This document shows positions 16,907 through 62,775 of a DNA stretch of 64,000 bases, one piece after another. Every line of letters starts with the position of its first letter. Within the stretch, counting starts at the first letter, position 1. Where the stretch lies: NCBI RefSeq assembly GCF_003852715.1, contig NZ_RIAV01000016.1:1-64000 (forward strand), read 5' to 3'. The notes beneath the pieces are model-generated. The model was not told where the DNA came from. It was given only the letters and a program-made list of their open reading frames with translations, and searched no databases. This DNA comes from Ectobacillus antri. GTDB taxonomy: Bacteria > Bacillota > Bacilli > Bacillales > Bacillaceae_G. A program made the translations under genes and the position numbers.

Positions 16907-17995
16907 CTATGTGTTCAACAATTTCAGTCCTTCTTGCAAAATATTCTTACTTGCGTTGATGTCCCTGTCATGATGCGTTCCGCAAGATGGACACTCCCAT
17001 TGACGCAAATTCAGGTTTTTGACTTCTTTGTTTTGATAGCCACAAACCGAGCAAAGTTGAGAAGAAGCGAATGTTTTTCCAACAACAGAAACGATTCTTC
17101 CGTACCACTGTCCTTTATATTCCAACATAGTGCGGAACATAGACCAAGATACTTCACTAATCGCTTTGGCTAACTTTTGGTTTTTCAGCATGTTTGACAC
17201 TTGCAAATCTTCTAAACAAATTGTTTGGTTTTCACAAATCAATTTAGTTGAGATTTTGTGCAAGTAGTCATTCCGGCAGTTTGCGATTTTCTCGTGAATT
17301 TGAGCAACACGAATACGAGCTTTGTTCCAATTCGAACCGCCCTTTGCACGCTTAGACAACATACGTTGCCATCTGATGAGTTGCTTTTCGTATTTGCGTA
17401 GATATTTAGGGTTCTCAAATACAACGCCGTCTGAACAAATAGCGAAGTCTTTTAAACCTAAGTCAACACCAACAGCTTTATTAACTTTCGGCAATGGTTG
17501 AACATCTACATCTGCAAGTACAGAAATGAAATATTTGCCGCTTGGATTTCGTCTGATTGTGGCAGACAAAATACGCCCTTCGATTTCTCTTGACTTGGCG
17601 AAGCGAACCCATCCGAGCTTTGGGATGAACAATTGATTCCCCTCTACTTTCATTTTTCCTACTGTCTTGTAGGATTGAACAGGATTTCGTCTTGATTTGA
17701 AGCGTGGGAAATCATTTTGCTTTTTAAAAAAGCGTTTGTACGCATCATCTAAAAATTTTAACGATTGCTGTAAAGAAGTAGAATCTACCTCCTTCAGCCA
17801 TACAAATTCCTTTTTGAGTTCTGTTAATTGCTTCGCGCAATCATTATATCCAAGAGATTTCTTGTCTGAAGCATAGATTTCTTTTCATTTTGCTAAGAAG
17901 TGGTTAAACACAAATCGTGAAGAACCAATCGTTTTGTTAATGATTGTTGCTTGCTCTTGTTTTGGATACAGACGAAATTGAAACGCTTTGTGCAT
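16907..17995 (-). pseudogene. tnpB: TnpB (RNA-guided nuclease family) with in-frame stop
   Basis: The 362-codon frame starts at the ATG at 17995 ([18 protein letters not shown]). A TGA at 17885-17887 interrupts it at about codon 37, within FNHFLAK-stop-KEIYAS, where the family usually has a tryptophan (TGG). The remainder is intact: Ruv[14 protein letters not shown], Ruv[11 protein letters not shown], zinc finger CSVCG...CPSCG, and Ruv[15 protein letters not shown]. The nuclease core is therefore preserved and only one base change disables the protein. Restart at an internal codon would lack the N-terminal wedge/recognition region. Confidence 0.85.
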
Positions 17996-20560: not shown

Positions 20561-20657
20561 TATAATAGGGTCAACTAAACTAGCTGTTACGGACGTTTCA
20601 GCCTTTCGTTCACCGTCCGTGCGCATATATTGCAAACATATTAAAGGGGGATCATGC
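20561..20657 (+). promoter_or_regulatory. promoter -10 and structured leader of the cyanophycinase-like gene
   Basis: A consensus TATAAT lies at 20561-20566; I see no good -35. The leader contains the complementary arms ACGGACG (20590 region) and CGTCCGT (20616 region) before the AAAGGGGG ribosome site. Confidence 0.45.
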
Positions 20658-23156
20658 ATGAAACGCAACATTATTTCCATTGCCGCGTGCTTGGCACTAT
20701 TGACTCCGCTTGGCACGCCCGTCAAAGCCGAGAGCAATGACATTAGGGGCAGCCTCGTTATCGTCGGCGGTGCCGTGGGCGCAACGAACAAAGCAATCTA
20801 TGAAGCTTTTATCAAGCGAGCCGGTGACGGTAAAATCGGGATTATTCCGGCGGCTAGCGGTAAGCTTCGCTCATCTAAAGACTTTAAAAAAGATTTGCAA
20901 AGCTACGGCATCAGTGAAAGCAAGATTGATATTTTACAAATTTCTGATCATGATTTTTCCGATACGCCAGAAGATGAATCCATTTGGGAAGCAAATGTGA
21001 ACAACGCTGCATTTGTGGACAAGCTCAAGGATTATACGGCGATTTGGTTTGTTGGCGGCGATCAGCTTCGCATTACTTCTTCACTTCGCAACGATGACGG
21101 CAGCAATTCTAAAGCACTTGACGCGATTTGGGATATTTACAAAGATGGCGCCGTGCTTGGCGGTACAAGTGCCGGAGCGGCCATCATGAGCGATGTGATG
21201 ATTACAGGTGGCGACAGCCTTGGGGCATTGCGAGCGGGTTTTGTTACAGAAGAGACAAAAACAGATAAGGAATATGCACCGGTATACATTGAAAAAGGAC
21301 TTGGCTTCTTTAAACACGGCATTATCGATCAGCACTTGGACGAGCGTTCTCGCCTGCTGCGACTTGCCATGACAGCACATGAATACGAAACGAACAAGGC
21401 AACAAACTTTGCATACGGCGTTGATGAAGACACAGCAATGGTCGTTGACAACAAAACAAATACAATCGAAGTTGTCGGACGCAGCGGTTTGGCTGTTGTA
21501 GATGTTAGCAAAATGAAAACGAAAAAGTTCACAAAAGGTAAACTGCCACGCAACGGCATTGCAGATATTGATATTAGCTATCTAGCACCTGGCGATAAAG
21601 TGCACTACGATACAAAAACATTCGAGTTTCCAAACAAAGACGAAACAAAAGGCTATGAATACTATTCCTTCGCACCTCGTCCGGCTACAGGTGTCTTTAC
21701 ATCTTACGGCAAGCTGAAAAATTATCTATCCTACTCACTTGTTGACAATTCTTCAGCCCAATCCGTAAGCAGCTACTTGTATGACAGCAAAGGCATCGGC
21801 TATGAAGCTGTATTCCGCAAAACGGAGAAAACAAATGGCTATTGGGGCTACACAGACGGACAAAAAGATGATTATTCCGTCGCACATGTGTCGTTGGATT
21901 TAATTCCAACCATTATGGAATTCAAACCAGATAATTCTGTAACGAAAGACTATAAGCCATCTGACTTTAAAGTACAAGCAACAAATCGCACAGATATTAA
22001 AGGAAATCTCGTTATCGCAGGCGGTGCACTTGGTAGTACAAATCGTGCTGTGTACGATGCGTTTACCTCCCTTGCGAAAGGAAAAATCGGGATTGTCCCA
22101 GCTGCAAGTAACCGTCTTTCTTCTTCTAATTCCTTTAAACAAGATTTGATTTCATACGGCTTTAAAGCGGAGGACATTGAAATTTTACCGATCTCCAATC
22201 ATGACTTTAAAGGCACACCAGAAGACGAATCTGCATGGAAAAGCAATATGAACAGCGACGAGCTTGCAAATAAGATCAAAGGTCTTGGCGGCATCTGGTT
22301 TGTGGGTGGTGACCAAACGTTAATTACTGGATCACTTCGCAACGATGACGGCTCCGATTCCAAAGTGTTAAACGCAATTTGGGATATGTATGCAAACGGC
22401 GGGGTGCTTGGCGGTACGAGCGCAGGAGCGGCCATCATGAGCGACGTTATGCTAGCAGGCGGCGACAGCTACGGCGCACTGCTGAACGGCTTTACAAATC
22501 AATACGACGGCATGACGCAGCAAGAAGGCGGCCCTGCTTACTTAGAACGCGGTCTTGGCTTCTTCCGCTACGGCATCATCGATCAGCATTTTGACAACAA
22601 AGCAAGGCTAGGCAGACTTATCACAACAGCTTACGAAAAAGGTAATAAAGCACAGCTTTCTTACGGGGTTGACGAAGATACAGCGATGGTTGTTCGCAAT
22701 GAAGCAAAAACCATTGAAGTAGTGGGTCGCGGCGGTGTTACACTCGTAGATTTAGCAAATGTAAAAGCAAAAAAAGCTAGCAACTACCAAGATATTTCTC
22801 TATCTTTCATTAAACCAGGGGATACAGTAAATCCAGAGACAAAAGCAATTGCCATTAACCCGAAAAAGTATGAAACAAAGGGCTACGAATACGCTGATAC
22901 AAAAGTGGCACCAAATGGCGGCGTCTTCTCACCGCACAATACATTAAAGCAATTCGTCTCCTATGACCTTGTAGACAATGCCGGCGTTGACAAAATCACA
23001 AGCTACAGCTTTGAAAATGGTAAAGGCTTTGAGTTAACGTTCCACAAAGGCAAAGAAACAAACGGCTACTGGACAAACACAGACGGTCAGCGTGATGACT
23101 ACTCCTTCACCAAGGTACTGCTTGACATCACACCGATTCGTGTGGAGAGCAAATAA
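20658..23156 (+). CDS. secreted tandem cyanophycinase-like (S51) protein
   Basis: This 832-residue protein has a signal peptide (residues 1-26, ending near VKAES) and two full copies of a roughly 417-residue unit. Each unit has a peptidase S51/cyanophycinase fold with GTSAGAAIMSDVM, in which the catalytic Ser is residue 171 in copy 1 and 588 in copy 2. A C-terminal module follows with ETNGYW, DGQ and DDYS motifs. Both copies also share a FVGGDQ segment. Known cyanophycinases cleave cyanophycin (Asp-Arg polymer); I infer hydrolysis of an external peptide or polymer, but the substrate is unproven. A terminator follows. Confidence 0.8.
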   Translation: MKRNIISIAACLALLTPLGTPVKAESNDIRGSLVIVGGAVGATNKAIYEAFIKRAGDGKIGIIPAASGKLRSSKDFKKDLQSYGISESKIDILQISDHDFSDTPEDESIWEANVNNAAFVDKLKDYTAIWFVGGDQLRITSSLRNDDGSNSKALDAIWDIYKDGAVLGGTSAGAAIMSDVMITGGDSLGALRAGFVTEETKTDKEYAPVYIEKGLGFFKHGIIDQHLDERSRLLRLAMTAHEYETNKATNFAYGVDEDTAMVVDNKTNTIEVVGRSGLAVVDVSKMKTKKFTKGKLPRNGIADIDISYLAPGDKVHYDTKTFEFPNKDETKGYEYYSFAPRPATGVFTSYGKLKNYLSYSLVDNSSAQSVSSYLYDSKGIGYEAVFRKTEKTNGYWGYTDGQKDDYSVAHVSLDLIPTIMEFKPDNSVTKDYKPSDFKVQATNRTDIKGNLVIAGGALGSTNRAVYDAFTSLAKGKIGIVPAASNRLSSSNSFKQDLISYGFKAEDIEILPISNHDFKGTPEDESAWKSNMNSDELANKIKGLGGIWFVGGDQTLITGSLRNDDGSDSKVLNAIWDMYANGGVLGGTSAGAAIMSDVMLAGGDSYGALLNGFTNQYDGMTQQEGGPAYLERGLGFFRYGIIDQHFDNKARLGRLITTAYEKGNKAQLSYGVDEDTAMVVRNEAKTIEVVGRGGVTLVDLANVKAKKASNYQDISLSFIKPGDTVNPETKAIAINPKKYETKGYEYADTKVAPNGGVFSPHNTLKQFVSYDLVDNAGVDKITSYSFENGKGFELTFHKGKETNGYWTNTDGQRDDYSFTKVLLDITPIRVESK

Positions 23157-30014: not shown

Positions 30015-30590
30015 ATGATGCGCATAGAAGAAGGTCACTTACCAGGGCAACACCACTCTACTATCCCGTACACATTTTTCCGTCAAGACAGTCGCCATAA
30101 ACTTTGCATTGTATTTCCTGGACTAGGCTATACGGCACAAAGGCCGCTGCTTCATTACCCGACTGGTTTATGTATAGAAAACGGTCATGATGTACTTCTA
30201 GTAAACCATACATACAAAGATAACGCTGCTTTTCGAGAGCTGGATGAAGCAAGTAGGAATGCTTGGTTACAAGCGGATGGGGAAGCTATCCTCTCCTTGC
30301 TGGGAGAAACATATACCCATATCACCATGATCAGCAAATCTATCGGCTCTATTCCCATGGCGCACCTTGCCCTGCATCACTTGCCGGAAGCAACGCGCAT
30401 TTGGCTGACGCCGCTGCTTCCCCAAGACAATGTCCAGCAGGCGATTACATCCAAGCAATCCTTCGCCGTCATCAGTAAGGAAGACCCTTTTTTTCGCGAA
30501 GATATTTGGAAAGCAAGGGCAAATGCCAAGTTCTTTATGAAACATAAAAAAGCAGGACTCAAAGTCCTGCTTTTTTACCAAACATCGTAG
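30015..30590 (+). CDS. alpha/beta hydrolase family protein, probably C-terminally shortened
   Basis: The 191-residue protein has an alpha/beta-hydrolase core (LCIVFPGLGYTAQRP, ITMISKSIGSIPMA with the nucleophile Ser in SKSIGS). The last codons (KKAGLKVLLFYQTS) are read through a terminator hairpin at about 30548-30578, where the catalytic His region should be. The end also overlaps the convergent hydrolase gene by 16 bases. I infer loss of the last 20-30 residues, so activity is doubtful. Start at 30015 after GAGGTG. Confidence 0.7.
   Translation: MMRIEEGHLPGQHHSTIPYTFFRQDSRHKLCIVFPGLGYTAQRPLLHYPTGLCIENGHDVLLVNHTYKDNAAFRELDEASRNAWLQADGEAILSLLGETYTHITMISKSIGSIPMAHLALHHLPEATRIWLTPLLPQDNVQQAITSKQSFAVISKEDPFFREDIWKARANAKFFMKHKKAGLKVLLFYQTS
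30546..30580. terminator. bidirectional terminator inside two convergent gene ends
   Basis: AAAAAAGCAGGACT-CAA-AGTCCTGCTTTTTT is a near-perfect inverted repeat with A and T runs. It serves the convergent alpha/beta hydrolase and GH114-like genes. Confidence 0.85.
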
Positions 30591-31408
30591 CCGCGATTCG
30601 TGTGAAAATGAATAAATCCATTTTGCTTCGCAAACAACGCACTTTTTCCCTTCTCCGTAAACGAAACAGTTAATACTTCTAATCCATATTGCTTACGAAG
30701 AAGCTGAAGATCACGGATACGGTCAAGTGACCAACCATCACGAGATACCTTCTTATAGTGAAAATCCTCCCACATAATGGCGTCTACATAAGGTGCCGTT
30801 GTGGTTTTGAGTGTACCAAAGCCCCAGTTTTGAATCATAGACAAATGCGGATATTTTGCTTGAATGTCTTGCAGGAACGTTTTCAGACCTTGCTGCTGCT
30901 CTAGCAAAACATCACCTTTATGCTCATTGTCAATATCGCCTACCGTATCAAGAAAAATGCCGTCAAATCCCTTTTGGGCAATATGATTTTGAATCTCTTC
31001 CATCAAAACGCCGCGGTAATGCACGGAAGTAATATCCATTAAATAAGAATCCCACTCTGGATAATATATCTTTTGATCGTTACGATAAAAGAAATCCTCC
31101 GGGGCAAAGCGCTTCATTAGCTCTTGATTCCAGTTTGCAGCTTCCATCGTACTAATGTAGCCATAAACCTTTGTCCCCTTTGCTTTGATTTGCTTCACCT
31201 GTGCAGCTGTATAATGATACGGTTCAATAATAACAAAATCATAATTAGTCATCTCCGAAAGAATACGCTTATTCGGTGCATTATAATAAATTTTATAAGA
31301 CTTGGCATCCTTAAGCATATTTGACGAACTCGCCATACCCTTGCCTACGCTTGGCCAAAACGCAGCCAAAACCACCACCACACACAAAAAAAACTTTACC
31401 ACCTTCAC
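30575..31408 (-). CDS. secreted GH114/TM1410-like glycoside hydrolase (PelA hydrolase-like)
   Basis: This 277-residue secreted protein has a signal peptide (residues 1-26). Its TIM-barrel fold is related to endo-alpha-1,4-polygalactosaminidases, with YDFVIIEPYHY, VYGYISTMEA and FLDTVGD (152-158, likely catalytic Asp154). The same fold forms the hydrolase domain of PelA in Gram-negative bacteria. Here it is a stand-alone gene downstream of pelG, separated by about 800 bases of repeats. I infer that it trims or releases Pel-type GalNAc/GalN polymer. It could alternatively act on another galactosamine polymer. Confidence 0.75.
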   Translation of the reverse strand: MKVVKFFLCVVVVLAAFWPSVGKGMASSSNMLKDAKSYKIYYNAPNKRILSEMTNYDFVIIEPYHYTAAQVKQIKAKGTKVYGYISTMEAANWNQELMKRFAPEDFFYRNDQKIYYPEWDSYLMDITSVHYRGVLMEEIQNHIAQKGFDGIFLDTVGDIDNEHKGDVLLEQQQGLKTFLQDIQAKYPHLSMIQNWGFGTLKTTTAPYVDAIMWEDFHYKKVSRDGWSLDRIRDLQLLRKQYGLEVLTVSFTEKGKSALFAKQNGFIHFHTNRGYDVW

Positions 31409-31468: not shown

Positions 31469-31897
31469 GAAAAGCGGAGCTGACCGTTTTGGCACAGAAT
31501 CTAAGGTTCTCGGTCCTAAAAGGCGCTTTTTGCCTTTTTGTGACCGTGGTTCTTAGATGGCAGTGCCTGGTCAGCGCAGCTAGATCCCATGAAAAGCGGA
31601 GCCGGCTCGTTTAGCTCTATAGGGCAGAGGTTCCTGGCACACAAAGGCGCTTTTTTGCCTTTTTGTGCTAGGGTTCTCTGACCGGAAGAGCTAGTCGGCG
31701 CAGCTAGATCCCATGAAAAGCGGAGCCGGCTCGTTTAACTCTATAGGGCAGAGGTTCCTGGCACACAAAGGCGCTTTTTTGCCTTTTTGTGCTAGGGTTC
31801 TCTGACCGGAAGAGCTAGTCGGCGCAGCTAGATCCTGAAAAGCGGAGCTGACCGTTTTGGCACAGAATCTAAGGTTCTCGGTCCAGAGGAGCTAGGC
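31469..31897. repeat. array of 122-124 bp repeats
   Basis: Units start with GAAAAGCGGAG at 31469, 31591, 31715 and 31837, with periods of 122, 124 and 122 bases. The last unit is incomplete. Each unit holds an inverted repeat around AAAGGCGCTTTTTTGCCTTTT and a conserved AGCTAG-TCGGCGCAGCTAG segment. A related single unit lies in opposite orientation at 62371-62510 inside the trp leader. There is no convincing reading frame. The remaining gap, 31900-32227, is AT-rich with one stem (AGCGATAA...TTATCGCT, about 32117-32147). Confidence 0.85.
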
Positions 31898-32227
31898 GAG
31901 ACTGACCCTTATTACACTATCTTCAAGTATCGACGACCCATGTCTTTGCGTCCTTGCTTTTCAACAAGTTTGCCCATCACCATATTTTCATATTAAGTTT
32001 AATTTATAATGATAATTAAAACAATAATGAAAAAATAAATCAGAACACGAAAACAACCTTGTATTTTCGCATTCTTTTTCTTATATCATGTAACTTAAAC
32101 TCGTATATACTATGTAGCGATAAAACACAGAGTGCGTCTTATCGCTTTATAATTGTACAAATATCGAGATGCACTTTACTCTAATGACCTCTTACCGGCA
32201 GAACAAAAGCGTACAATATGTTTTCTA

Positions 32228-33658
32228 TTACAATCTCTCTAACATACTTCCTACTCGTTGAAAGAAATTGAACCTCTGTTTTGTTTGATTTCTCATGAAC
32301 GCATAAAACTCAATCTCTTTTACATAAGCGAAAAGACGCATGGCTGAATAAGCAAATGCTAGAATAGAGCCGATTGCAAAGCTTAAACCGTAACCGTCTA
32401 CACCAAGTGGCAGCAACAAAAGCGTAAGAATGCCGTTTGCTGTAAAAAAGAGAATACTGGTGTACATAGCCCCCCTGCGATCTTCAAAATATAAAAGCAG
32501 TAGACTTATTACAAACACAATTGCATTAGCCAAAGCTCCAACAATCGTAATACATAGCATGCCTAAAAACGGTTGTCTAAAACCAAATTCAGCGGCAAAG
32601 TATAAAATAGTAGCCAAAATAAGTAAGGAAAAAAGACCTTGATTGCGTAAAAGACGCTCCATTTCCTGTCGCAGTACGATTAACATCGTGTCTTTTGCTT
32701 TTTGTATTTGTGCTAGCGATCCCCCTTCATTAATATAGCCGTAAAAGGTACGATATCGCTGGTAAAATCTTGTTTCAATTGATAAAACAAATAACATCAT
32801 TGTAGGAATAATAGACAAATACGACCAAAAAATAGCTGTATCATAGAGTGTATGAAAACGAAACGACCCTTCAATGTAAGAAGATCCTTCCCCAAACCAT
32901 ATAATCCAGTTGCACACCCAAACGCCAATATTATATAAGAAACCCGTCCAAAATAAAGAAGGATAACGATCAAAATACACAAAATAGGCAAATTGATTCT
33001 CTGTCGTACGTTTCGGAAAACTAATCAAAAATGAAAAATATAAACTAAACAGTGTAATAATCATACCTGATGTAAAGGCCGCAAAAAGAGAAAGCACAGT
33101 TGCTTGCACAGAATATTCACCAATTTCAGCAACATATACAACAATCGCTACTGCTCCAACACTCACTATCCCACCAATCATAAAGCTATAGGCGATGGAC
33201 TGATAATACTTCGCTGCAGTTAAAAACATAAACAGAATCCAAATTAGGTTCATTACAGCAAATAAAATCAGCAAGACTAACTTATATACGAACGGCAAAG
33301 GTGAAATACATACAAATATCACCCAAAGTACGACCGCGGCTCCCACCGCTGTTTTTGATGCTCCAAGAAAGGTGGCATACACTTCATTGATACGCTTCTC
33401 ATAAAATAAATCTGCAATATATCGAGTTACAATCAAGTTTTGTGCTCCAAAAATAATCTGAGAAAAAATAAAGCAATACGAAATAGAGGCTAAAAATAAC
33501 TCACGTACCGCTATACTCAATCCAGCGCTCTGAATCAACCATTGTACAATAACGAGCACTGCAACAACTACAATCCATGGTCCAGCCGTAACAAGGCTTG
33601 CGAAACCATATGCCCGAATGCGTGCTGAAAAGTAATCTTCTTTAAATAATTCCTGCAT
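32228..33658 (-). CDS. pelG: PelG, membrane transporter of the Pel polysaccharide
   Basis: The 476-residue protein has about 12 membrane segments and belongs to the PelG/MATE-like flippase family. It is thought to carry the Pel polymer across the membrane together with PelF. The N-terminus (FSARIRAYGFASLVTAGPWI) is characteristic of PelG. It begins one base after pelF ends and is the last gene of the cluster. It is co-transcribed with pelDEAF. Confidence 0.9.
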   Translation of the reverse strand: MQELFKEDYFSARIRAYGFASLVTAGPWIVVVAVLVIVQWLIQSAGLSIAVRELFLASISYCFIFSQIIFGAQNLIVTRYIADLFYEKRINEVYATFLGASKTAVGAAVVLWVIFVCISPLPFVYKLVLLILFAVMNLIWILFMFLTAAKYYQSIAYSFMIGGIVSVGAVAIVVYVAEIGEYSVQATVLSLFAAFTSGMIITLFSLYFSFLISFPKRTTENQFAYFVYFDRYPSLFWTGFLYNIGVWVCNWIIWFGEGSSYIEGSFRFHTLYDTAIFWSYLSIIPTMMLFVLSIETRFYQRYRTFYGYINEGGSLAQIQKAKDTMLIVLRQEMERLLRNQGLFSLLILATILYFAAEFGFRQPFLGMLCITIVGALANAIVFVISLLLLYFEDRRGAMYTSILFFTANGILTLLLLPLGVDGYGLSFAIGSILAFAYSAMRLFAYVKEIEFYAFMRNQTKQRFNFFQRVGSMLERL

Positions 33659-33659
33659 T

Positions 33660-35072
33660 TTAAATCCGATGCCTGCGATAACGTTTCACCTCCATCTCAT
33701 ATATTGTTGTATACTCTTTTATCACATCACGCCATTGATACTTTGCTTCCACACGGCGTCTTCCATTTTCGCCAAAGCGCCTTGCTTCATCACGGTTATG
33801 GTACACCCACAAGGATTTATCAGCTAGAACTTTTGGATTTACAGGAGGCACGATAAAACCAGCCTGTCCAAAACCATCTTCCGCTAACAGTAACTCAAAA
33901 CACGAACCAACGTCTGTAGCTATAAATGGGATTCCCGCACCCAGGCCTTCTAAAATCGCCAACGGCTGCCCCTCTGAAATACTAGTAAGCCAAAGCAAAT
34001 CCAAAGTAGGCAAATGCTTCTTAACGTGTGTTTGTCCTGTAAATATCACATAATCCTGTAGCATAAGACGATCTTTTAACTCTAAGCATTCTTGTGCATA
34101 GTCCCAATCCTCATCCATAGGTCCCATAATACGCAACTCAAAATCAATTCCTTCATCAGCTAACATTCGTGCTGCGTACAGCATTGTTTTAATATCCTTA
34201 ATAGGAACTAGCCGAACAATTGCACCAATTCGAAGCTTATTTGTAACACCCTCACATTTAATATGCTTCAGACCATCATAGTCAATGCCATTTGGAATAA
34301 TACGCAATTTGTCATCTGGTGCACCTAGTTCCTTTTGATACTCACTGTTACGACCAAACAATGTGATGATTTGGTCAGCACTGTGATAGGCTTGTTTAGA
34401 AAGATGATAAAAATATTGAATCCAGCGTTCTTTGTATACATTTGGAATCCAAGTTGCTCGCAAAATTTCTTCTTCTCGTTCACGTGTATAAATACCGTGC
34501 TCGGTTAAGATAAACGGAATATTTTGTTGCTCTTTTATATACGCCCCTACTACACCTGCGTATCCCGTAGAAACAGCATGGACCAAATCTACCTCAGGAA
34601 AATCCTGCTGTAGCAGACTAACGATACTTTCACACATAGAACGATACATCCAAAAATAATCAATAAACGAACTCGATTGCGCTTCTTCCTGATACGTACG
34701 CTGTACAATATTCCAAAACGGTCTACTCTGCAGAAATGTTGAAACACTTCCTAGACGCCTGTAATCGGCTAAAATACGCAAAGCTTCTTCATCGGTTTGC
34801 TTAAAAGAAAGCCAATTTGATACACTGTTCATTTCTTGAGTGGAAAGCTGACTTTCACTCTGCAACTCGGACACTTTACCCAATTGATATACTCTTACAT
34901 TTTGAACGTTTTCTAGTAAGCTGTACTTATACTCTGCTTTAAAATCCTTTGGCATAATAGAGATAATCTCAAATTGAATATCTGGTTTACTAGAAATCAA
35001 CATATGAATCCAACTCGCGACACCTCCGCGAATAAAAGGGTAACTCCCTTCTGCTACAATTGCCACTCTCAT
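33660..35072 (-). CDS. pelF: PelF, GT4 glycosyltransferase
   Basis: The 470-residue cytosolic GT-B glycosyltransferase starts MRVAIVAEGSYPFIRGGVAS, the PelF signature, and has the family-4 motif EGLGAGIPFIATDVGSCFEL. PelF polymerises UDP-GalNAc-type donors in Pel synthesis and works with PelG, PelD and PelE. It is flanked with one-base gaps by pelA and pelG. Confidence 0.92.
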   Translation of the reverse strand: MRVAIVAEGSYPFIRGGVASWIHMLISSKPDIQFEIISIMPKDFKAEYKYSLLENVQNVRVYQLGKVSELQSESQLSTQEMNSVSNWLSFKQTDEEALRILADYRRLGSVSTFLQSRPFWNIVQRTYQEEAQSSSFIDYFWMYRSMCESIVSLLQQDFPEVDLVHAVSTGYAGVVGAYIKEQQNIPFILTEHGIYTREREEEILRATWIPNVYKERWIQYFYHLSKQAYHSADQIITLFGRNSEYQKELGAPDDKLRIIPNGIDYDGLKHIKCEGVTNKLRIGAIVRLVPIKDIKTMLYAARMLADEGIDFELRIMGPMDEDWDYAQECLELKDRLMLQDYVIFTGQTHVKKHLPTLDLLWLTSISEGQPLAILEGLGAGIPFIATDVGSCFELLLAEDGFGQAGFIVPPVNPKVLADKSLWVYHNRDEARRFGENGRRRVEAKYQWRDVIKEYTTIYEMEVKRYRRHRI

Positions 35073-35073
35073 T

Positions 35074-36885
35074 TTACTTCACTTCCTTTACAGGGATGCT
35101 AATAAGCGGCTTAGTGACCTGAACATGATATAAACCATCCATATATTTCGTCACATGATAGCCGGCAAACTTCCCTTCAACAAGAGTTCCCTTTTCCACT
35201 CTTACGAACACATCGCAGGGATTGACAAGACCTTTTCCTGAGATCGTTATCTGATCTTCACTATAATGCACATACAAATTCGCTTTACTATATTGTTTCA
35301 TTTTTTCTGCCGCATAAAAGGCTTGATACTCCCGCAAATATGGATACATGTGATTCATATGATACATTAACTCAGTCAATCCCTTTCGCATGGGCTTCCA
35401 ACCAGCTTTATGGGCACGGTCTATATCAAGTAAATCATCTGGATGAATAAAGTGACTAAACATACCAAAATTAGCGACAGCATCGGTGATTGCTAGCATC
35501 TCAAATGGTGCTTGTCCATAACCACTGGAAATACGGGGAAAATGGAACAAATCTTTATAAAATGCATCTCCTTCAAATTCTTGCTCAAATACCCCTTTGC
35601 CATCTCCACCATCATACAAAGAGCCGATGACTTGTATAGTGGGCATAGCTTGCTTGAGCGCGTGAATGCCTGTTTCGTTTAAAACATTAGAAGGTGGTAC
35701 ATAAGAACGGAGGATTTCATCAGGAAAGTAATACGAAAACAGTTGTTTCGCTTTTATTATAGAACTTTCCATATGCTGCTGATCACGCCAAGGTATATAC
35801 TGTAGTTCTGTGTCCATTGGTTCTCTACTAGTAACCAATGGCTGATGATTATATCCATGATAGCCCAGCTCATCACCGCGGCGTTGCGAATCTCGCCCAA
35901 AGAAAATCATTTGATGCCGCATATCCGAAATGAGCTGCTCACTTGTTACCATATCATCATTTCGATATGTACCTATAAACATATTGGTATATAACAAACC
36001 CGCTTCTTCGGCAATACGCTTCATGTCTGGCCACCAAATCTTCTCAAAAAATGCCTGTGTGGTCATGTCGTAGTCTTTTGTAATAACATCAGTAAAACCT
36101 GCTGGAAATGGAGCTGGAAAATCGTCAATAAACATGACCTTTGTAGCAACTTGTCCACTCACAAATTGCGGCGTTGCTAGACCCATCGATTGTGTAATTA
36201 ATCCCCTTGTAAATTTCGTAACTAAAAATGTAGCATTCCAATATACAACTTTTCCTTTTTCATACTCGTGAGTCCAAAGCATAGGGATATTTTCCGCTGT
36301 CATATATAGCTCTGCTTGATTAGAAAGCGTCACATCCATCATGCTATTTGGGATAGACCCTTGGGTATCTACAATCGTTTCGTACCCAGGAAACAACGGT
36401 TTTTGAATTTCAATCCCATACGCATTATTTTCAAAATACCCATTATTTTCTTCAATCCCTACAAGGCTATTCCATCTTTTATCTGTAAAACGCTGCGCAA
36501 CAAACAAGCGTCCACCTTGCTTTACAAAACGTTCTGTAGCTTCATACGGTAATATGTTATCCGTAATGACAAGAATATGATAGGGAGACGGTGTTACGTT
36601 CATAGCTTCTAAAGGGGTCCGATATGAAAATGGCACCTTTGCATACGTTAATGCTTGCGCAATATTATTCAAAATCGGATCTTCTTTATCCGTTACGAGG
36701 GTAACATGCACTTCCTGACCGCTGGGTATTTGATCTGTGCTCATTGTTTTTATAGGTGCTACTTCTTGTCCACGAGCTGGGAACAACTTATAAAATCCGT
36801 CCACTCGCATTACTTGTATGACCCCAACTAACGCTAATAAAATAATAGCTGTTCCCACCCAAACGAAATACAAACGCTGTCTCAT
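35074..36885 (-). CDS. pelA: PelA deacetylase-type protein (DUF2194), no hydrolase domain
   Basis: This 603-residue membrane-anchored protein has a hydrophobic segment at residues 8-25 and an extracellular part. The metal-dependent deacetylase motif is MFIDDFPAPF (Asp254, Asp255) plus His343 and His347 in GYHGYNHQ. It corresponds to the deacetylase region of PelA in Gram-positive Pel clusters and probably de-N-acetylates the polymer. The hydrolase domain found at the N-terminus of Gram-negative PelA is absent. A separate gene at 30575-31408 could supply it. Its start abuts the pelE stop. Confidence 0.85.
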   Translation of the reverse strand: MRQRLYFVWVGTAIILLALVGVIQVMRVDGFYKLFPARGQEVAPIKTMSTDQIPSGQEVHVTLVTDKEDPILNNIAQALTYAKVPFSYRTPLEAMNVTPSPYHILVITDNILPYEATERFVKQGGRLFVAQRFTDKRWNSLVGIEENNGYFENNAYGIEIQKPLFPGYETIVDTQGSIPNSMMDVTLSNQAELYMTAENIPMLWTHEYEKGKVVYWNATFLVTKFTRGLITQSMGLATPQFVSGQVATKVMFIDDFPAPFPAGFTDVITKDYDMTTQAFFEKIWWPDMKRIAEEAGLLYTNMFIGTYRNDDMVTSEQLISDMRHQMIFFGRDSQRRGDELGYHGYNHQPLVTSREPMDTELQYIPWRDQQHMESSIIKAKQLFSYYFPDEILRSYVPPSNVLNETGIHALKQAMPTIQVIGSLYDGGDGKGVFEQEFEGDAFYKDLFHFPRISSGYGQAPFEMLAITDAVANFGMFSHFIHPDDLLDIDRAHKAGWKPMRKGLTELMYHMNHMYPYLREYQAFYAAEKMKQYSKANLYVHYSEDQITISGKGLVNPCDVFVRVEKGTLVEGKFAGYHVTKYMDGLYHVQVTKPLISIPVKEVK

Positions 36886-37800
36886 TTATACACCCCTAAC
36901 TACATCCAATACAGGCTTAATATGATCTGGTATGTGAGCTTCTTCTACATGATGATGCAATTTCCTATATACGTCTTTCATACACCTAATATCTCCTCTT
37001 TGAAAATAAAGCTCCATAGCACGTATATATCCTTCGCTCGCCTTTGGGAATCGTTTCATCATCTCCTGTGCTATCTGCAATGCTAGTTCTTTTTCTTCTA
37101 GTTCTTTATAGACAAAAACAAGATAATCAGAAAAAACAATATATTGCGGAAATAATTCAACGGCTTCCTGTAATAGCTTTTTAAACTCTTTGTATAAACG
37201 CTTCTCGATTAATTCGTCAGCCACCTTACTACGCAGATATCGGTGATATGAATAGCATAGTGCCAGATAGCTGTTTACATCTTGAGGTGTGAGTAGTTTT
37301 TCCTGTTGTTCAATGCTCTTTTCATAACGCTCTTTTATATGATTAATTGTCGTGGCTGCGTAATGAACTGTTTCCATGTCAGTGCTACTAAGCGCTTTTG
37401 CCAATTGCACACCTCGGTTTTCAAACTCGGCTTCCATAAGTCTTACAATCAAATTCTTTCTTAATTTAGCGTCTGAACCTTGAAGACCTATAGAAAATGA
37501 GGTTAATGCCAAATCCTTTTCTGCCTCAATAGCAACCTCGTCATAATTTAAAAAATCAAATTGAATATATTGCTCGTACGAATGAATCGTACTCGTTTGA
37601 ACCATTCGCGCAGCCAACCACGCTATATATCCTAGCACTGTTCCAATAACGGGAATGATTATGCTAATTAGTGCGATCCATTGCCAAACACCAAGCTCCG
37701 TTACTTCTCTATTTCGTGCAAATTTCATAACGAAAACGACAATAGCCGTATGTACCATATAAAACAAAGCAACTGCTACTGTATATGTATTAAGTTCCAT
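36886..37800 (-). CDS. pelE: PelE, membrane/TPR subunit
   Basis: The 304-residue protein has two N-terminal membrane segments (about 5-25 and 35-60) followed by helical repeats (tetratricopeptide type, for example LALQIAQEMMKRFPKASEGY). This layout matches PelE, a partner of PelD and PelG in the synthase complex. It overlaps pelD by 11 bases and abuts pelA. Confidence 0.85.
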   Translation of the reverse strand: MELNTYTVAVALFYMVHTAIVVFVMKFARNREVTELGVWQWIALISIIIPVIGTVLGYIAWLAARMVQTSTIHSYEQYIQFDFLNYDEVAIEAEKDLALTSFSIGLQGSDAKLRKNLIVRLMEAEFENRGVQLAKALSSTDMETVHYAATTINHIKERYEKSIEQQEKLLTPQDVNSYLALCYSYHRYLRSKVADELIEKRLYKEFKKLLQEAVELFPQYIVFSDYLVFVYKELEEKELALQIAQEMMKRFPKASEGYIRAMELYFQRGDIRCMKDVYRKLHHHVEEAHIPDHIKPVLDVVRGV

Positions 37801-39028
37801 GTATGCTTGTCACCTCATCTTTTAACTTTGTGACAATTCGCTCTCGTAGCTGCGTTACGTACTTTTGCTCTGTACCTGGCAGTAAGAAATGCAGCATGCC
37901 TGTTTCTGCATCAAATCCAACTTTGTCCACTTCTCGTAAAAATTTACGCACAATCTCACTAATATCGTAAAGCTTTTCATGCTCTGCATGACCAATAAAC
38001 ACCTCAAAACATGCATAAGGTTGCTTGTACATTTCAAATCGCTGCTGCTCGATTTGTACATATTCATCAAAAAACGCTTTTTTATAAATGAGTGTGTCTG
38101 TATATAATTTATCGCGTTTTTTAACAATTGTTTTTGCAACTACACGCTCTGCCCCCTCTGAAATGACTTGAAGCAACCAGTGTAACAATTGAATGTTATG
38201 CTCGGTAAGCTGATATAAATCCATGTTGCGAATAATCAACACTTGACGAACTTCATTATTTATAATAATAGGACCGGCAATCACAGGTGCCGCTTCTTCA
38301 TCACTCTCGCGCTTTACTGTTAGATTACGTTCTTCAAAGAGACGTTGATAAAACTGTTTGGCCTCCTCCAGAAATATCGTTTGCGGCAGCAGCTCATGAG
38401 AACCTCTTCGTACTTTAATACGCAAAGTACGGCCTGACGTGTCGACATGATATATACCAAAATCCTGTGCATTAAAATAGGAAGATAAAATGGCAACAGC
38501 TTCATTTGTGACAAATTCTATATTATCTTGATCCAGAGCACGCATCATGCCATATACAGAGGAGATACTCATCTCGGATTGCAACAGCCTTTGCTCCAAT
38601 ACTTCATTTGTTATTGTTAGTTGAGATACTGCGTTTTGCGCAGATTTTAGTTCTTCTCTTAATTCCTCATTTACAAAAAGTAAGTCTTCATAACGCTCCT
38701 TCCAAGCTGTTCGTGAAGCACCTACAATGACAGCAATACACACATATACAAATAGCCATTTATTAGAAAGCATGTTGTAAAACATAACGAATACATCACC
38801 ATTTACTAGAACCTCTAAAGCAATGAAATAAATGAGAACAAAAACAAAACTAGTGATACCTGCTTTCCAGCCATAACGCATACTAAATAGCAATACTAAA
38901 AATAAAAACGGACTAGGTTGCATCACATGTACTTGAAGCATAAACAACTGATCTAGCACAAATACACTCAAAAAAGCAAGTATTATTTCTGTATATATAC
39001 GTATTTGATTGTTCTGTCTATACCCCAT
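37790..39028 (-). CDS. pelD: PelD, c-di-GMP receptor of the Pel synthase
   Basis: This 412-residue protein has about four N-terminal membrane spans, a coiled-coil (about 115-150), a GAF domain and a degenerate GGDEF domain. No GGDEF catalytic motif is visible. Arg365-Glu-Val-Asp368 (in KFLREVDKVGF) fits the RxxD site that binds c-di-GMP in PelD of P. aeruginosa. It is likely the post-translational on-switch of Pel synthesis. I use the ATG at 39028, because the GTG at 39040 is fused to the GAGGAG site. Confidence 0.88.
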   Translation of the reverse strand: MGYRQNNQIRIYTEIILAFLSVFVLDQLFMLQVHVMQPSPFLFLVLLFSMRYGWKAGITSFVFVLIYFIALEVLVNGDVFVMFYNMLSNKWLFVYVCIAVIVGASRTAWKERYEDLLFVNEELREELKSAQNAVSQLTITNEVLEQRLLQSEMSISSVYGMMRALDQDNIEFVTNEAVAILSSYFNAQDFGIYHVDTSGRTLRIKVRRGSHELLPQTIFLEEAKQFYQRLFEERNLTVKRESDEEAAPVIAGPIIINNEVRQVLIIRNMDLYQLTEHNIQLLHWLLQVISEGAERVVAKTIVKKRDKLYTDTLIYKKAFFDEYVQIEQQRFEMYKQPYACFEVFIGHAEHEKLYDISEIVRKFLREVDKVGFDAETGMLHFLLPGTEQKYVTQLRERIVTKLKDEVTSIHGT

Positions 39029-39081
39029 CCTCTTTTCCACCTCCTCATAATTTATAACAACTCATTTTATACATGTTCCTC

Positions 39082-50734: not shown

Positions 50735-50763
50735 AAAAAAGCCTCGATTATAAATCGAGGCCC
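50735..50763 (-). terminator. terminator of the micropeptide operon
   Basis: On the minus strand GCCTCGATTTATAATCGAGGC is followed by TTTTTT. It ends the transcript of the five YrzI-like genes. Confidence 0.8.
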
Positions 50764-50800
50764 TCCATAATCAGCGGAAGAGACATCCCTCCCTCTCACG

Positions 50801-50854
50801 CTACGCGGAATCTTCCTCCACAAACCAGATCATTTCCTTTCTTCTCATCAACAT
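50801..50854 (-). CDS. 17-residue ORF at the end of the YrzI operon
   Basis: The ATG at 50854 is preceded by GGGAGAGG six bases upstream. The product is MLMRRKEMIWFVEEDSA. Its size and position next to yrzI-type genes recall additional tiny ORFs reported in the B. subtilis yrzI transcript (from memory). Expression is unproven. Confidence 0.4.
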   Translation of the reverse strand: MLMRRKEMIWFVEEDSA

Positions 50855-50889
50855 ATTCTTCCTCTCCCTTCCTTCATGATAAAACTGCT

Positions 50890-51012
50890 TTAGCAGTAGT
50901 ACGTTTGACGTTCTTTCACTTCTTCCATCATACTTTGTACACGCTCATCGTGACGCGCTTGCTTTAACGTTCTCTTTGATATAATCATAAACAACAACAG
51001 GTTGAGTGTCAT
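50890..51012 (-). CDS. YrzI-family small protein, copy 1 (40 aa)
   Basis: The product begins MTLNLLLFMIISKRTLKQAR and ends MMEEVKERQTYYC. It has a hydrophobic N-terminal third, a charged helical middle and the KERQ-x-YY end shared by all five copies. An AGGGAGGG ribosome site precedes it. It is the most divergent copy in the middle. YrzI proteins are tiny proteins of unknown function in Bacillus; toxicity on overexpression has been reported for B. subtilis YrzI as far as I recall. Confidence 0.7.
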   Translation of the reverse strand: MTLNLLLFMIISKRTLKQARHDERVQSMMEEVKERQTYYC

Positions 51013-51027
51013 ACAGAACCCTCCCTT

Positions 51028-51147
51028 CTACAGGTAATACGCTTGACGCTCCTTCACTTGTGCCATTAATTCCTTCACACGAAGATCATGTTCCTTCGCT
51101 GCACTTGGCTTCACTGTAATCGTAAACAGCAGTAAGTTTAATGTCAT
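51028..51147 (-). CDS. YrzI-family small protein, copy 2 (39 aa)
   Basis: The product begins MTLNLLLFTITVKPSAAKEH and ends KERQAYYL. It is nearly identical to copy 3 (same KPSAAKEHDL core), which points to recent tandem duplication. It has its own AGGAGGGA ribosome site and starts 17 bases after the stop of copy 3. Confidence 0.72.
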   Translation of the reverse strand: MTLNLLLFTITVKPSAAKEHDLRVKELMAQVKERQAYYL

Positions 51148-51163
51148 ACTACATCCCTCCTTT

Positions 51164-51283
51164 TTAACAATAATAAGTTTGACGTTCCTTTACTTCTTCC
51201 ATCAGTTCCTTAACGTGCAGATCATGTTCCTTCGCGGCACTTGGCTTCACTGTAATCGTGCATAATAGTAGGTTTAATGTCAT
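51164..51283 (-). CDS. YrzI-family small protein, copy 3 (39 aa)
   Basis: The product begins MTLNLLLCTITVKPSAAKEH and ends MEEVKERQTYYC. It has an AAAGGAGAAGG ribosome site. One cysteine replaces the Phe of copy 2 at position 8, and the last residue is Cys as in copies 1 and 5. Confidence 0.72.
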   Translation of the reverse strand: MTLNLLLCTITVKPSAAKEHDLHVKELMEEVKERQTYYC

Positions 51284-51298
51284 ACAAACCTTCTCCTT

Positions 51299-51430
51299 TT
51301 AGTGGTAATAGACTTGACGTTCTTTTACTTCGTTCATCATCTGTTTTACATGTATGTCGTGCTGTACTTGCGCTGTCGTTCGTTTCGACCTTGTAATTGT
51401 CACTGTAATGAGTAAGAGATTAAGTGTCAT
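51299..51430 (-). CDS. YrzI-family small protein, copy 4 (43 aa)
   Basis: The product begins MTLNLLLITVTITRSKRTTA and ends NEVKERQVYYH. It is the longest copy, with a four-residue insertion in the middle. An AAAGGAGGAA ribosome site precedes it. Confidence 0.72.
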   Translation of the reverse strand: MTLNLLLITVTITRSKRTTAQVQHDIHVKQMMNEVKERQVYYH

Positions 51431-51445
51431 ACAAATTCCTCCTTT

Positions 51446-51565
51446 CTAGCAATAATAAGCTTGACGTTCCTTCATTTCAGTCATCTTGTGCTGTACCTCT
51501 GCATCATGTGCTGTTTTTTGTTCTCGTTTTAATGTAACTGTGAACAAAATGAAATTGAGTACCAT
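51446..51565 (-). CDS. YrzI-family small protein, copy 5 (39 aa)
   Basis: The product begins MVLNFILFTVTLKREQKTAH and ends MKERQAYYC. It is the promoter-proximal copy, placed directly after the attenuator-like hairpins, with an AAAGGAGAG ribosome site. The N-terminus deviates slightly (VLNFIL instead of TLNLLL). Confidence 0.72.
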   Translation of the reverse strand: MVLNFILFTVTLKREQKTAHDAEVQHKMTEMKERQAYYC

Positions 51566-51597
51566 ACAAATCTCTCCTTTTCTCTAAAAAATCGCGC

Positions 51598-51670
51598 AAA
51601 AAAAACCGCAGGCATACGCATCCTACGGCAGGGCATAACAAAGCCGCAGGAAACTACTCGCACCTGCGGC
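51598..51670 (-). promoter_or_regulatory. attenuator-like hairpin pair upstream of the YrzI genes
   Basis: On the minus strand, hairpin 1 (51670-51643) pairs GCCGCAGG with CCTGCGGC. Hairpin 2 (51628-51606) pairs CCGTAGG with CCTGCGG and runs into eight T residues, a typical intrinsic terminator. The 5' arm of hairpin 1 is perfectly complementary (7 bases) to the 3' arm of hairpin 2, whereas hairpin 2 itself has a G-U pair. The two structures can thus be exchanged for an antiterminator. A perfect 13-base inverted repeat, CTAAAAAATCGCG (51584-51596) and CGCGATTTTTTAG (51690-51702), encloses the region. Confidence 0.6.
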
Positions 51671-51698
51671 TGAACGGTCTACATAAAAACGCGATTTT

Positions 51699-51782
51699 TT
51701 AGCGTACCATCCATTCGGTCGAATAGTTGTTTTCATATGCGATTGTAAACATCATTGCTTTGTTCATAACTAATTTCATCAT
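51699..51782 (-). CDS. 27-residue leader peptide ORF
   Basis: An AAAGGAGG site precedes overlapping ATG codons; the ATG at 51782 opens a 27-codon frame. It starts MMKLVMNKAMMFTIAYENNY and ends STEWMVR, with six methionines. Its stop codon lies in the outer inverted repeat of the attenuator-like structure. A competing ATG-AAA-TGA at 51787 overlaps its start. I infer a leader peptide, not a family member of YrzI. Expression is unproven. Confidence 0.5.
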   Translation of the reverse strand: MMKLVMNKAMMFTIAYENNYSTEWMVR

Positions 51783-51824
51783 TTCATTCGACCTCCTTTT
51801 TGGAATTTTTTTCTTACATTGCTA

Positions 51825-51853
51825 ATTATATGCTCACTACCACACTTTGTAAA
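51825..51853 (-). promoter_or_regulatory. strong promoter of the micropeptide operon
   Basis: TTTACA (51853-51848), a 17-base spacer and TATAAT (51830-51825) on the minus strand; the predicted start of transcription is near 51818, about 36 bases before the leader ORF. Confidence 0.75.
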
Positions 51854-62072: not shown

Positions 62073-62335
62073 AAAAAGTCCTCTGCATGTACATGCAGAG
62101 GACGATATGATTACCGTGGTGCCACCTCAGTTTGGGTTCGCGAAAGAACCCCTCTTTTTCGGGTACACATGATACCCTATCCTTGATAACGGAGGAATCC
62201 GTGTCTTCCTACTCCATCTTTCAAAAGACCTCTCGTAAGCCCATTCGGTATACAATATCGTACCGGCTCTCACCTCCCCCGGCTCTCTGGAACGCATCTC
62301 GTATACGTACTCTTCTTACTCAGCGATTTATATTT
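62073..62335 (-). promoter_or_regulatory. trp T-box riboswitch 2 (proximal to trpE)
   Basis: On the minus strand the AG-bulge segment AGAAGAGTACGTATA lies near 62310. A TGG (Trp) specifier sits at 62243-62241 within CCGAATGGGCTTAC. The T-box AGGTGGCACCACGG is at about 62113-62126. A terminator with arms GTCCTCTGCATG and CATGCAGAGGAC followed by TTTTTT sits at 62073-62103. Uncharged tRNA-Trp is expected to stabilise the antiterminator and allow trp transcription. Confidence 0.88.
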
Positions 62336-62515: not shown

Positions 62516-62775
62516 AAAAAGGGCCCACTCATCCTTTAGTAAAGGACGAGAGGACCCGTGGTACCACCTTCATTGGTTGCAAATGCAACCCGCTTTAACG
62601 CATCAAGTTCAATGCGCGTCTCTTGTAACGATGAGACTGTTCGCCAAAGCCTACTGTTAGTTCGGTTTGGAAGCTCCGAAGCCCATTCCCTATTACGCCC
62701 ATACTGATTCGCACCAACCATCAGCTCTCTGACATGTTTGTAATACGTACTCTTCTTCATCAGCGCTTTTCGTTC
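62516..62775 (-). promoter_or_regulatory. trp T-box riboswitch 1 (promoter-proximal)
   Basis: On the minus strand AGAAGAGTACGTATT (near 62755) begins stem I. The TGG specifier is at 62685-62683 in GGGAATGGGCTTCGG. The T-box AGGTGGTACCACGGG is at about 62556-62570. The terminator GGGTCCTC...GAGTGGGCCC with TTTTT spans 62516-62557. This is the first of two serial tryptophan-sensing T-boxes. Confidence 0.88.

Follow-up and report, generated by a model that had tools for sequence, protein, structure and literature searches.

Which signal decides whether a run of very small genes is transcribed, and how much of that decision is written into the RNA preceding them, are questions raised by a locus of Ectobacillus antri, where five genes of the YrzI type follow one another behind an attenuator-like leader. 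Among the targets known for RNase Rae1, which associates with the ribosome, the yrzI operon is a main one, and it has also been read as a toxin-antitoxin system. A previous examination, made from the letters of the DNA alone (the sequence-only reading), had linked the locus to this operon and had proposed that a short leader open reading frame (ORF) and two hairpins with exchangeable arms govern the genes behind them. Here, the locus is considered both within the window, i.e., the whole stretch of 64,000 nucleotides of E. antri DNA that was analyzed, and in comparison with its counterparts in genomes of the order Bacillales.

Layout of the unit

As read from the sequence, the whole unit occupies the minus strand (51853-50735; Table 1) and is set apart from its neighbor, an upstream histidine-kinase-like gene, by the terminator of that gene (51911-51877). 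The parts that the sequence-only reading had named were all recovered, namely the consensus promoter, the leader ORF of 27 codons, the two hairpins of which the second ends in T8, and the ORF of 17 codons which, together with a terminator, closes the unit. It is the yrzI operon as known from Bacillales, in which YrzI has here expanded to a row of five copies, and both the protein family and the type of operon are known.

Table 1. Features of the yrzI unit in the window, listed from the promoter to the closing terminator
Feature	Position	Strand	Basis or remark
Sigma-A promoter TTTACA-N17-TATAAT	51825..51853	(-)	11 of 12 consensus matches, best of the region; position conserved across the order
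Predicted RNA start	about 51818	(-)	from the promoter
Element S, GGTCGAAT, overlapping the end of the leader Shine-Dalgarno	51786..51793	(-)	pairs with E; covariation
Leader ORF, 27 codons, MMKLVMNKAMMFTIAYENNYSTEWMVR	51699..51782	(-)	preceded by Shine-Dalgarno AAAAAGGAGGT
Element E, AACTATTCGACC, within the leader ORF, about six codons ahead of its stop	51717..51728	(-)	pairs with S or H
Hairpin 1, terminator-like	51642..51671	(-)	top is H
H, top of hairpin 1, GGTGCGAGTAGTT	51664-51652	(-)	pairs with E
Hairpin 2, terminator-like, 51629-51605 with T8	51598..51629	(-)	sequence
YrzI copy 1, 39 aa	51446..51565	(-)	TIGR02413/PF09501 match
YrzI copy 2, 43 aa	51299..51430	(-)	TIGR02413/PF09501 match
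YrzI copy 3, 39 aa	51164..51283	(-)	TIGR02413/PF09501 match
YrzI copy 4, 39 aa	51028..51147	(-)	TIGR02413/PF09501 match
YrzI copy 5, 40 aa	50890..51012	(-)	TIGR02413/PF09501 match
S1025-like ORF, 17 codons, MLMRRKEMIWFVEEDSA	50801..50854	(-)	motif and position common across the order
Closing terminator GCCTCGAT-TTATA-ATCGAGGC-T6	50735..50761	(-)	sequence

Several other features were noticed elsewhere in the window. A c-di-GMP-I riboswitch (31893-31984, minus strand) lies directly ahead of a polysaccharide-hydrolase-like gene (30575-31408, minus strand), beside which a pelDEFG-like cluster was read by eye (32228-39040), and two tandem T-box leaders (62095-62332 and 62539-62772, minus strand) precede trpE. 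Also read by eye were an ORF of 845 residues with two similar cyanophycinase-like halves and a signal peptide (20619-23156, plus strand), and a TnpB-like ORF of 248 residues whose N-terminal part is apparently missing (16907-17653, minus strand).

The YrzI genes and their copy number

In profile searches, all five ORFs match TIGR02413 and PF09501 from position 1 to 42-43 (E 2.7e-4 to 5e-12), which supports their earlier assignment to the YrzI type; three of the five exceed the Pfam gathering score, and none reaches the NCBIfam cut-off of 47 bits. There are no YrzI copies outside the array, and the five are the whole set of this genome. They comprise 39, 43, 39, 39 and 40 codons, each behind its own Shine-Dalgarno sequence, at start-to-start distances of 135-147 nt, in agreement with the 39-43 codons, separate ribosome sites and spacing of about 130-150 bases reported before. 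Two copies had been called nearly identical, which overstates their likeness: copies 3 and 4 (51164-51283 and 51028-51147) share only 80% of their DNA and 33 of 39 residues. The expectation that such genes are missed by usual annotation holds in part, the family being already curated as YrzI (TIGR02413).

Across the order, PF09501 is matched in 205 of 399 genomes. At the 103 loci that were examined closely, window included, one copy is found 72 times, two copies 19 times, three copies seven times, four copies four times and five copies once, in the window. The idea that a five-copy array is a new form of the system was rejected, since arrays of three to five copies occur elsewhere in Bacillales: L084, L085 and the same-genus genome L013 hold four copies, and L075 holds four plus a fifth interrupted by a run of N. 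Judged by these counts, the array is a copy-number variant at the upper end of the known range. In L013, the four genes are accompanied by the same leader and the same 17-codon ORF, and the third copy begins like window copy 3 and, from about its 20th base onward, follows window copy 4, a pattern that points to one crossover between the 80%-identical copies 3 and 4. A second relative, L014, has three copies.

The closing ORF and its relation to Rae1

The 17-codon ORF at the end of the unit recalls S1025 of B. subtilis, which we take to encode 17 residues. S1025 adjoins yrzI and was the first Rae1 substrate to be characterized (PMC11780869, PMC10632193). The window ORF ends ...WFVEEDSA, and its conserved site reads VEED, not VEKD. 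Among ORFs of 15-28 codons with a ribosome site, a C-terminal [KE][DG]xx motif is present in 44 of 172 near yrzI versus 1 of 169 control ORFs; the common form of the motif is EKD, and an ...EKD(S/T/Q)x ending recurs throughout the order. In B. halotolerans, B. tequilensis, B. inaquosorum, B. spizizenii, B. velezensis and B. atrophaeus, YrzI is followed by a 17-codon peptide such as MLRMELLMHYTMEKDQV, which ends ...MEKDQV in these relatives of B. subtilis.

The location, the length and the motif, in which Glu stands in place of Lys, all make the window ORF the counterpart of S1025. The B. subtilis operon and the window thus have in common the succession of YrzI and a 17-codon ORF and, as seen in the B. 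subtilis relatives, the promoter and leader architecture, whereas B. subtilis has one YrzI copy and EKD in the small ORF and the window has five copies and EED. A Rae1/YacP gene is present in the genome (E 5e-57) and, together with the S1025-like ORF, lends support to the earlier link with the Rae1-attacked operon. Once the mRNA of the unit exists, Rae1 cutting within the translated 17-codon ORF probably limits it. Variants of the small peptide were also observed: at L056, L078, L083, L122, L129, L136, L137 and L141, a peptide ending WY..VKGLT precedes yrzI rather than trailing it, and at L058 and L087 a peptide of the GKGFV form lies downstream of yrzI. Both may possibly represent other Rae1-type sites.

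A leader specific to the operon

A promoter and an ORF of 20-50 codons behind a strong ribosome site are found upstream of yrzI at 91 of the 103 loci. When the promoter-plus-ribosome-site pattern was searched for in the 399 genomes of the order, it matched in 78, once in each, and the reversed pattern matched in none. Most matches lie at loci with Pfam YrzI matches, and ten further loci, some of them without a Pfam YrzI match, all precede YrzI-like genes, mostly with EKG, EKD or EED peptides. The leader is therefore specific to this operon, and what had been seen as an attenuator-like leader in one genome is conserved across the order. In Rfam, the leader has no relevant match at the gathering score, and matches below that score are at chance level.

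Two groups of loci depart from the general picture. In the family group f21 (L161, L162, L163, L168, L169), the leader pattern precedes arrays of YrzI-like ORFs, with starts such as MLPFHLVIITR..., MLTINLVFVTIGI... and MTLNLVFVTITV..., which alternate with short EKGLT peptides; several of these genomes lack a Pfam YrzI match, so that the leader detects members that profiles miss. In f40 (L080, L119, L120, L140), yrzI retains the conserved -10 region and is preceded by a different leader of about 130 nt without ORF or terminators, an exception that counts against the attenuator reading given below, as does the VEED site of the window ORF.

The leader ORF has a strong ribosome site and is predicted to be translated. 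In 57 leaders that were picked by promoter and ribosome site only, with no ORF criterion, the frame is open from ATG through element E in 56 cases, versus 24 of 114 for the other two frames. Across genera, E is read in all three frames (29, 20 and 8 of the 57 cases) and encodes Ser-Thr, Arg-Pro or Phe-Asp accordingly. Since the ORF nevertheless stays open, translation appears to matter, in contrast to the peptide; on the same grounds, both a leader peptide and a regulatory codon were rejected as the conserved feature. A Tyr-rich stretch ahead of E was also considered, and its frame preference was unconvincing. The leader stop codon mostly ends 20-38 bases past the point where E begins, which would place a ribosome that terminates there at E or on top of it.

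Mutually exclusive pairings in the leader RNA

Across Bacillales, element S, which consists of the end of the leader Shine-Dalgarno sequence and the bases that follow, is complementary to ATTCGACC in E, near the end of the leader ORF. This pairing is kept by different sequences, i.e., GGTTGAAC/GTTCAACC, GGCTGAAT/ATTCAGCC, CTGAACGAAA/TTTCGTTCGG and GGGAAGG/CCTTCCC. In an alignment of 50 sequences (A1), 89.6% of the S:E cells pair versus 24-47% when slid, both sides have changed in six of eight pairs, and doubly changed cells number 25 versus 8.4 after shuffling, figures which undercount the support for S:E, as MAFFT misaligned a few divergent rows. In a permutation that drew one locus from each of 23 families and matched S to entire leaders, the fit of S to its own leader exceeded that to the others by 1.9 kcal/mol (z -4.9); preselecting E by its fit to S biases such a test. 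The ATTCGACC motif is common to most leaders, and much of the pairing is thus attributable to common ancestry. Even so, that an ordinary YrzI operon with tandem terminators should carry these pairings by chance or shared ancestry is very improbable, given the independent compensatory forms of S and E in unrelated families and the clean negative controls described below.

The second partner of E is H, made up of the last GG of the hairpin-1 5' arm and a loop such as CGAATAGT, which is complementary to E and to the bases ahead of it. In family-level permutations (20 families), E pairs better with the H of its own leader, by 2.6 kcal/mol (z -5.0), and in the controls of the same kind (E versus the hairpin-2 loop, S versus H, S versus the hairpin-2 loop) no preference for the own genome was found. 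The preference of E persists with the hairpin-1 loop alone (z 4.9) or with only the upstream part of E, and the complementarity lies mostly within the loop; in L164 and L165, H and S are identical in sequence (GGTCGAA). The partner of E in the B. subtilis relatives is the hairpin-1 5' arm instead (GCCTGTGG with CCGCAGGC, -13 to -17 kcal/mol). As they share E, the S:E and E:H pairings are mutually exclusive, and both covary.

Between the leader ORF and the genes, nearly all leaders have two hairpins with T-runs, which are predicted terminators; the second hairpin is present in most. For the hairpin pair, whose covariation in relatives had been suggested as a check, a preference within genomes was seen between the hairpin-1 3' arm and the hairpin-2 5' arm (z -3.9). 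An exchange of arms, as put forward in the sequence-only reading, has comparative support, but S:E and E:H are key pairings as well. If the hairpin-1 5' arm joins the hairpin-2 3' arm, a terminator ahead of T8 remains; hairpin 2 would be removed by an exchange between the hairpin-1 3' arm and the hairpin-2 5' arm. An outer stem around both window hairpins (AAAAAATCGCG with CGCGATTTTTT) was dismissed, being conserved no further than the close relative. S:E and E:H are conserved and covary, and the leader is an RNA switch that is both real and conserved.

How the switch could act

We consider a ribosome-mediated transcription attenuator of the yrzI operon to be the best reading of the leader, with a probability of roughly two in three. 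The RNA would begin near 51818. With no ribosome on the leader, S:E would close the leader Shine-Dalgarno sequence, hairpin 1 would form and transcription would stop. During normal translation, the ribosome at the leader stop would cover E, and hairpin 1 would form again, so that a short leader RNA would be the default product. If a ribosome stalls or moves slowly in the early leader, S would be covered and E free, and E could capture H as soon as this emerges; the hairpin-1 3' arm could then join the hairpin-2 5' arm, and the polymerase would read on through the YrzI array to the S1025-like ORF. What we infer here is this order of events, that antitermination takes place, that stalled ribosomes provide the signal and that Rae1 cleaves the RNA in E. 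antri.

Equilibrium folding of the window with masks in place of a ribosome, as had been suggested earlier, agrees with such a switch in part: the window does switch, and the result depends on the length of the mask. Without a mask, a transcript ending at hairpin 1 folds into S:E plus hairpin 1. Under a mask that covers S and the first dozen codons, E:H together with the arm exchange is the unforced minimum and both terminators are lost, whereas with no mask or with E masked, hairpin 1 or its exchanged form remains, and with a slightly shorter early mask hairpin 1 stays at 0.90. In B. atrophaeus, too, the antiterminator is predicted to abolish the terminator. Across 71 loci, hairpin 1 is kept at equilibrium in 69 despite the early-leader mask, and antitermination is favored in two, so a thermodynamic switch in every species is unsupported. 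Either the switch acts during transcription, and kinetic folding at that stage could decide the outcome, or hairpin 1 persists and E:H is a contact with its loop.

The latter option leads to a different explanation, in which the leader controls its own translation and not transcription: the hairpin-1 loop would capture E and thereby open the Shine-Dalgarno sequence, and the hairpins would be leaky terminators for basal yrzI expression. That the complementarity to E is concentrated in the loop, that the stem persists at equilibrium in nearly all loci and that a loop contact could coexist with the terminator all speak for this explanation. However, in the B. subtilis relatives E pairs with the hairpin-1 stem itself, which is incompatible with the terminator; control of the translation of a non-conserved peptide alone would have no evident purpose, and two terminators ahead of the operon need relief. 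We therefore regard it as unlikely, and a transcription attenuator as the better account.

Read as such an attenuator, the leader resembles those of the trp type, where the protector 1:2 corresponds to S:E, the antiterminator 2:3 to E:H and the terminator 3:4 to hairpin 1, and where strand 2, here E, lies near the leader stop. It differs from them in that strand 1 holds the Shine-Dalgarno sequence of the leader itself, the peptide is not conserved, no conserved regulatory codon is seen and two terminators stand in series. Another parallel may be the bmrB attenuator of the B. subtilis bmrCD operon, where antibiotic-dependent ribosome attenuation takes place in a leader ORF and which is also cut by Rae1. 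In B. subtilis, the mRNAs of both yrzI and bmrCD rise on depletion of the tRNA maturase, which the authors discuss in terms of mRNA stability, not readthrough (PMC10100781), and which is compatible with attenuation of yrzI but is not proof of it. The genes and sequences of the two systems differ.

Published RNAs from the leader region

Several published transcripts can be related to the leader. In B. subtilis, ncr2184/ncr60, an RNA of 234 nt from the yrzI-yrhG interval, is known only as a small RNA candidate associated with Hfq (22-fold enriched; PMC3574147), and the literature searched describes no attenuator for it. Counted from its predicted start, an RNA that ends with hairpin 1 would measure 211-235 nt in five B. 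subtilis relatives and 199-226 nt in six more, and a YrhG-like transporter gene, identified by eye, lies directly upstream of the leader in relatives. By position and length, ncr60/ncr2184 matches a leader RNA ended at hairpin 1. Likewise, the 5' UTR of B. licheniformis yrzI was measured as 301 nt (PMC3871023), and the predicted start lies 276-305 nt ahead of yrzI in eleven relatives.

From the same RNAs, the leader could be seen chiefly as a small RNA or mini-mRNA in its own right, of the ncr60/ncr2184 type, that acts in trans, possibly with Hfq, its pairings serving for stability. Besides the recovery of the B. subtilis RNA with Hfq, the yrzI-yrhG transcript of B. velezensis FZB42 was listed among highly expressed small-protein transcripts formerly called small RNAs (PMC4634765). 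Many terminated cis-leaders co-purify in the Hfq study, though (PMC3574147), and every checked match of the leader pattern stands directly upstream of a YrzI-type operon, which points to action in cis and makes a role mainly in trans improbable.

Implications

The yrzI operon is known, and its leader switch appears to be undescribed; no description of it was found in the literature searched, a scope outside which the main Rae1 papers lie. We lean slightly towards the view that it constitutes an undescribed, order-wide, translation-sensing attenuator, in which the protector strand is the leader Shine-Dalgarno sequence and a Shine-Dalgarno mimic forms the terminator top. The attenuator idea is testable by single-base mutations in B. 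subtilis, and the reading as a terminated leader would explain the orphan RNA ncr60/ncr2184. Moreover, the leader can serve to locate YrzI-like micropeptide genes that escape protein profiles, as in one family group here. A leader that senses the progress of the ribosome would place the yrzI operon in the response to translation stress and, if the proposal is true, the YrzI and S1025 micropeptides would form a module that is turned on by ribosome stalling and turned off by the ribosome-associated RNase Rae1.
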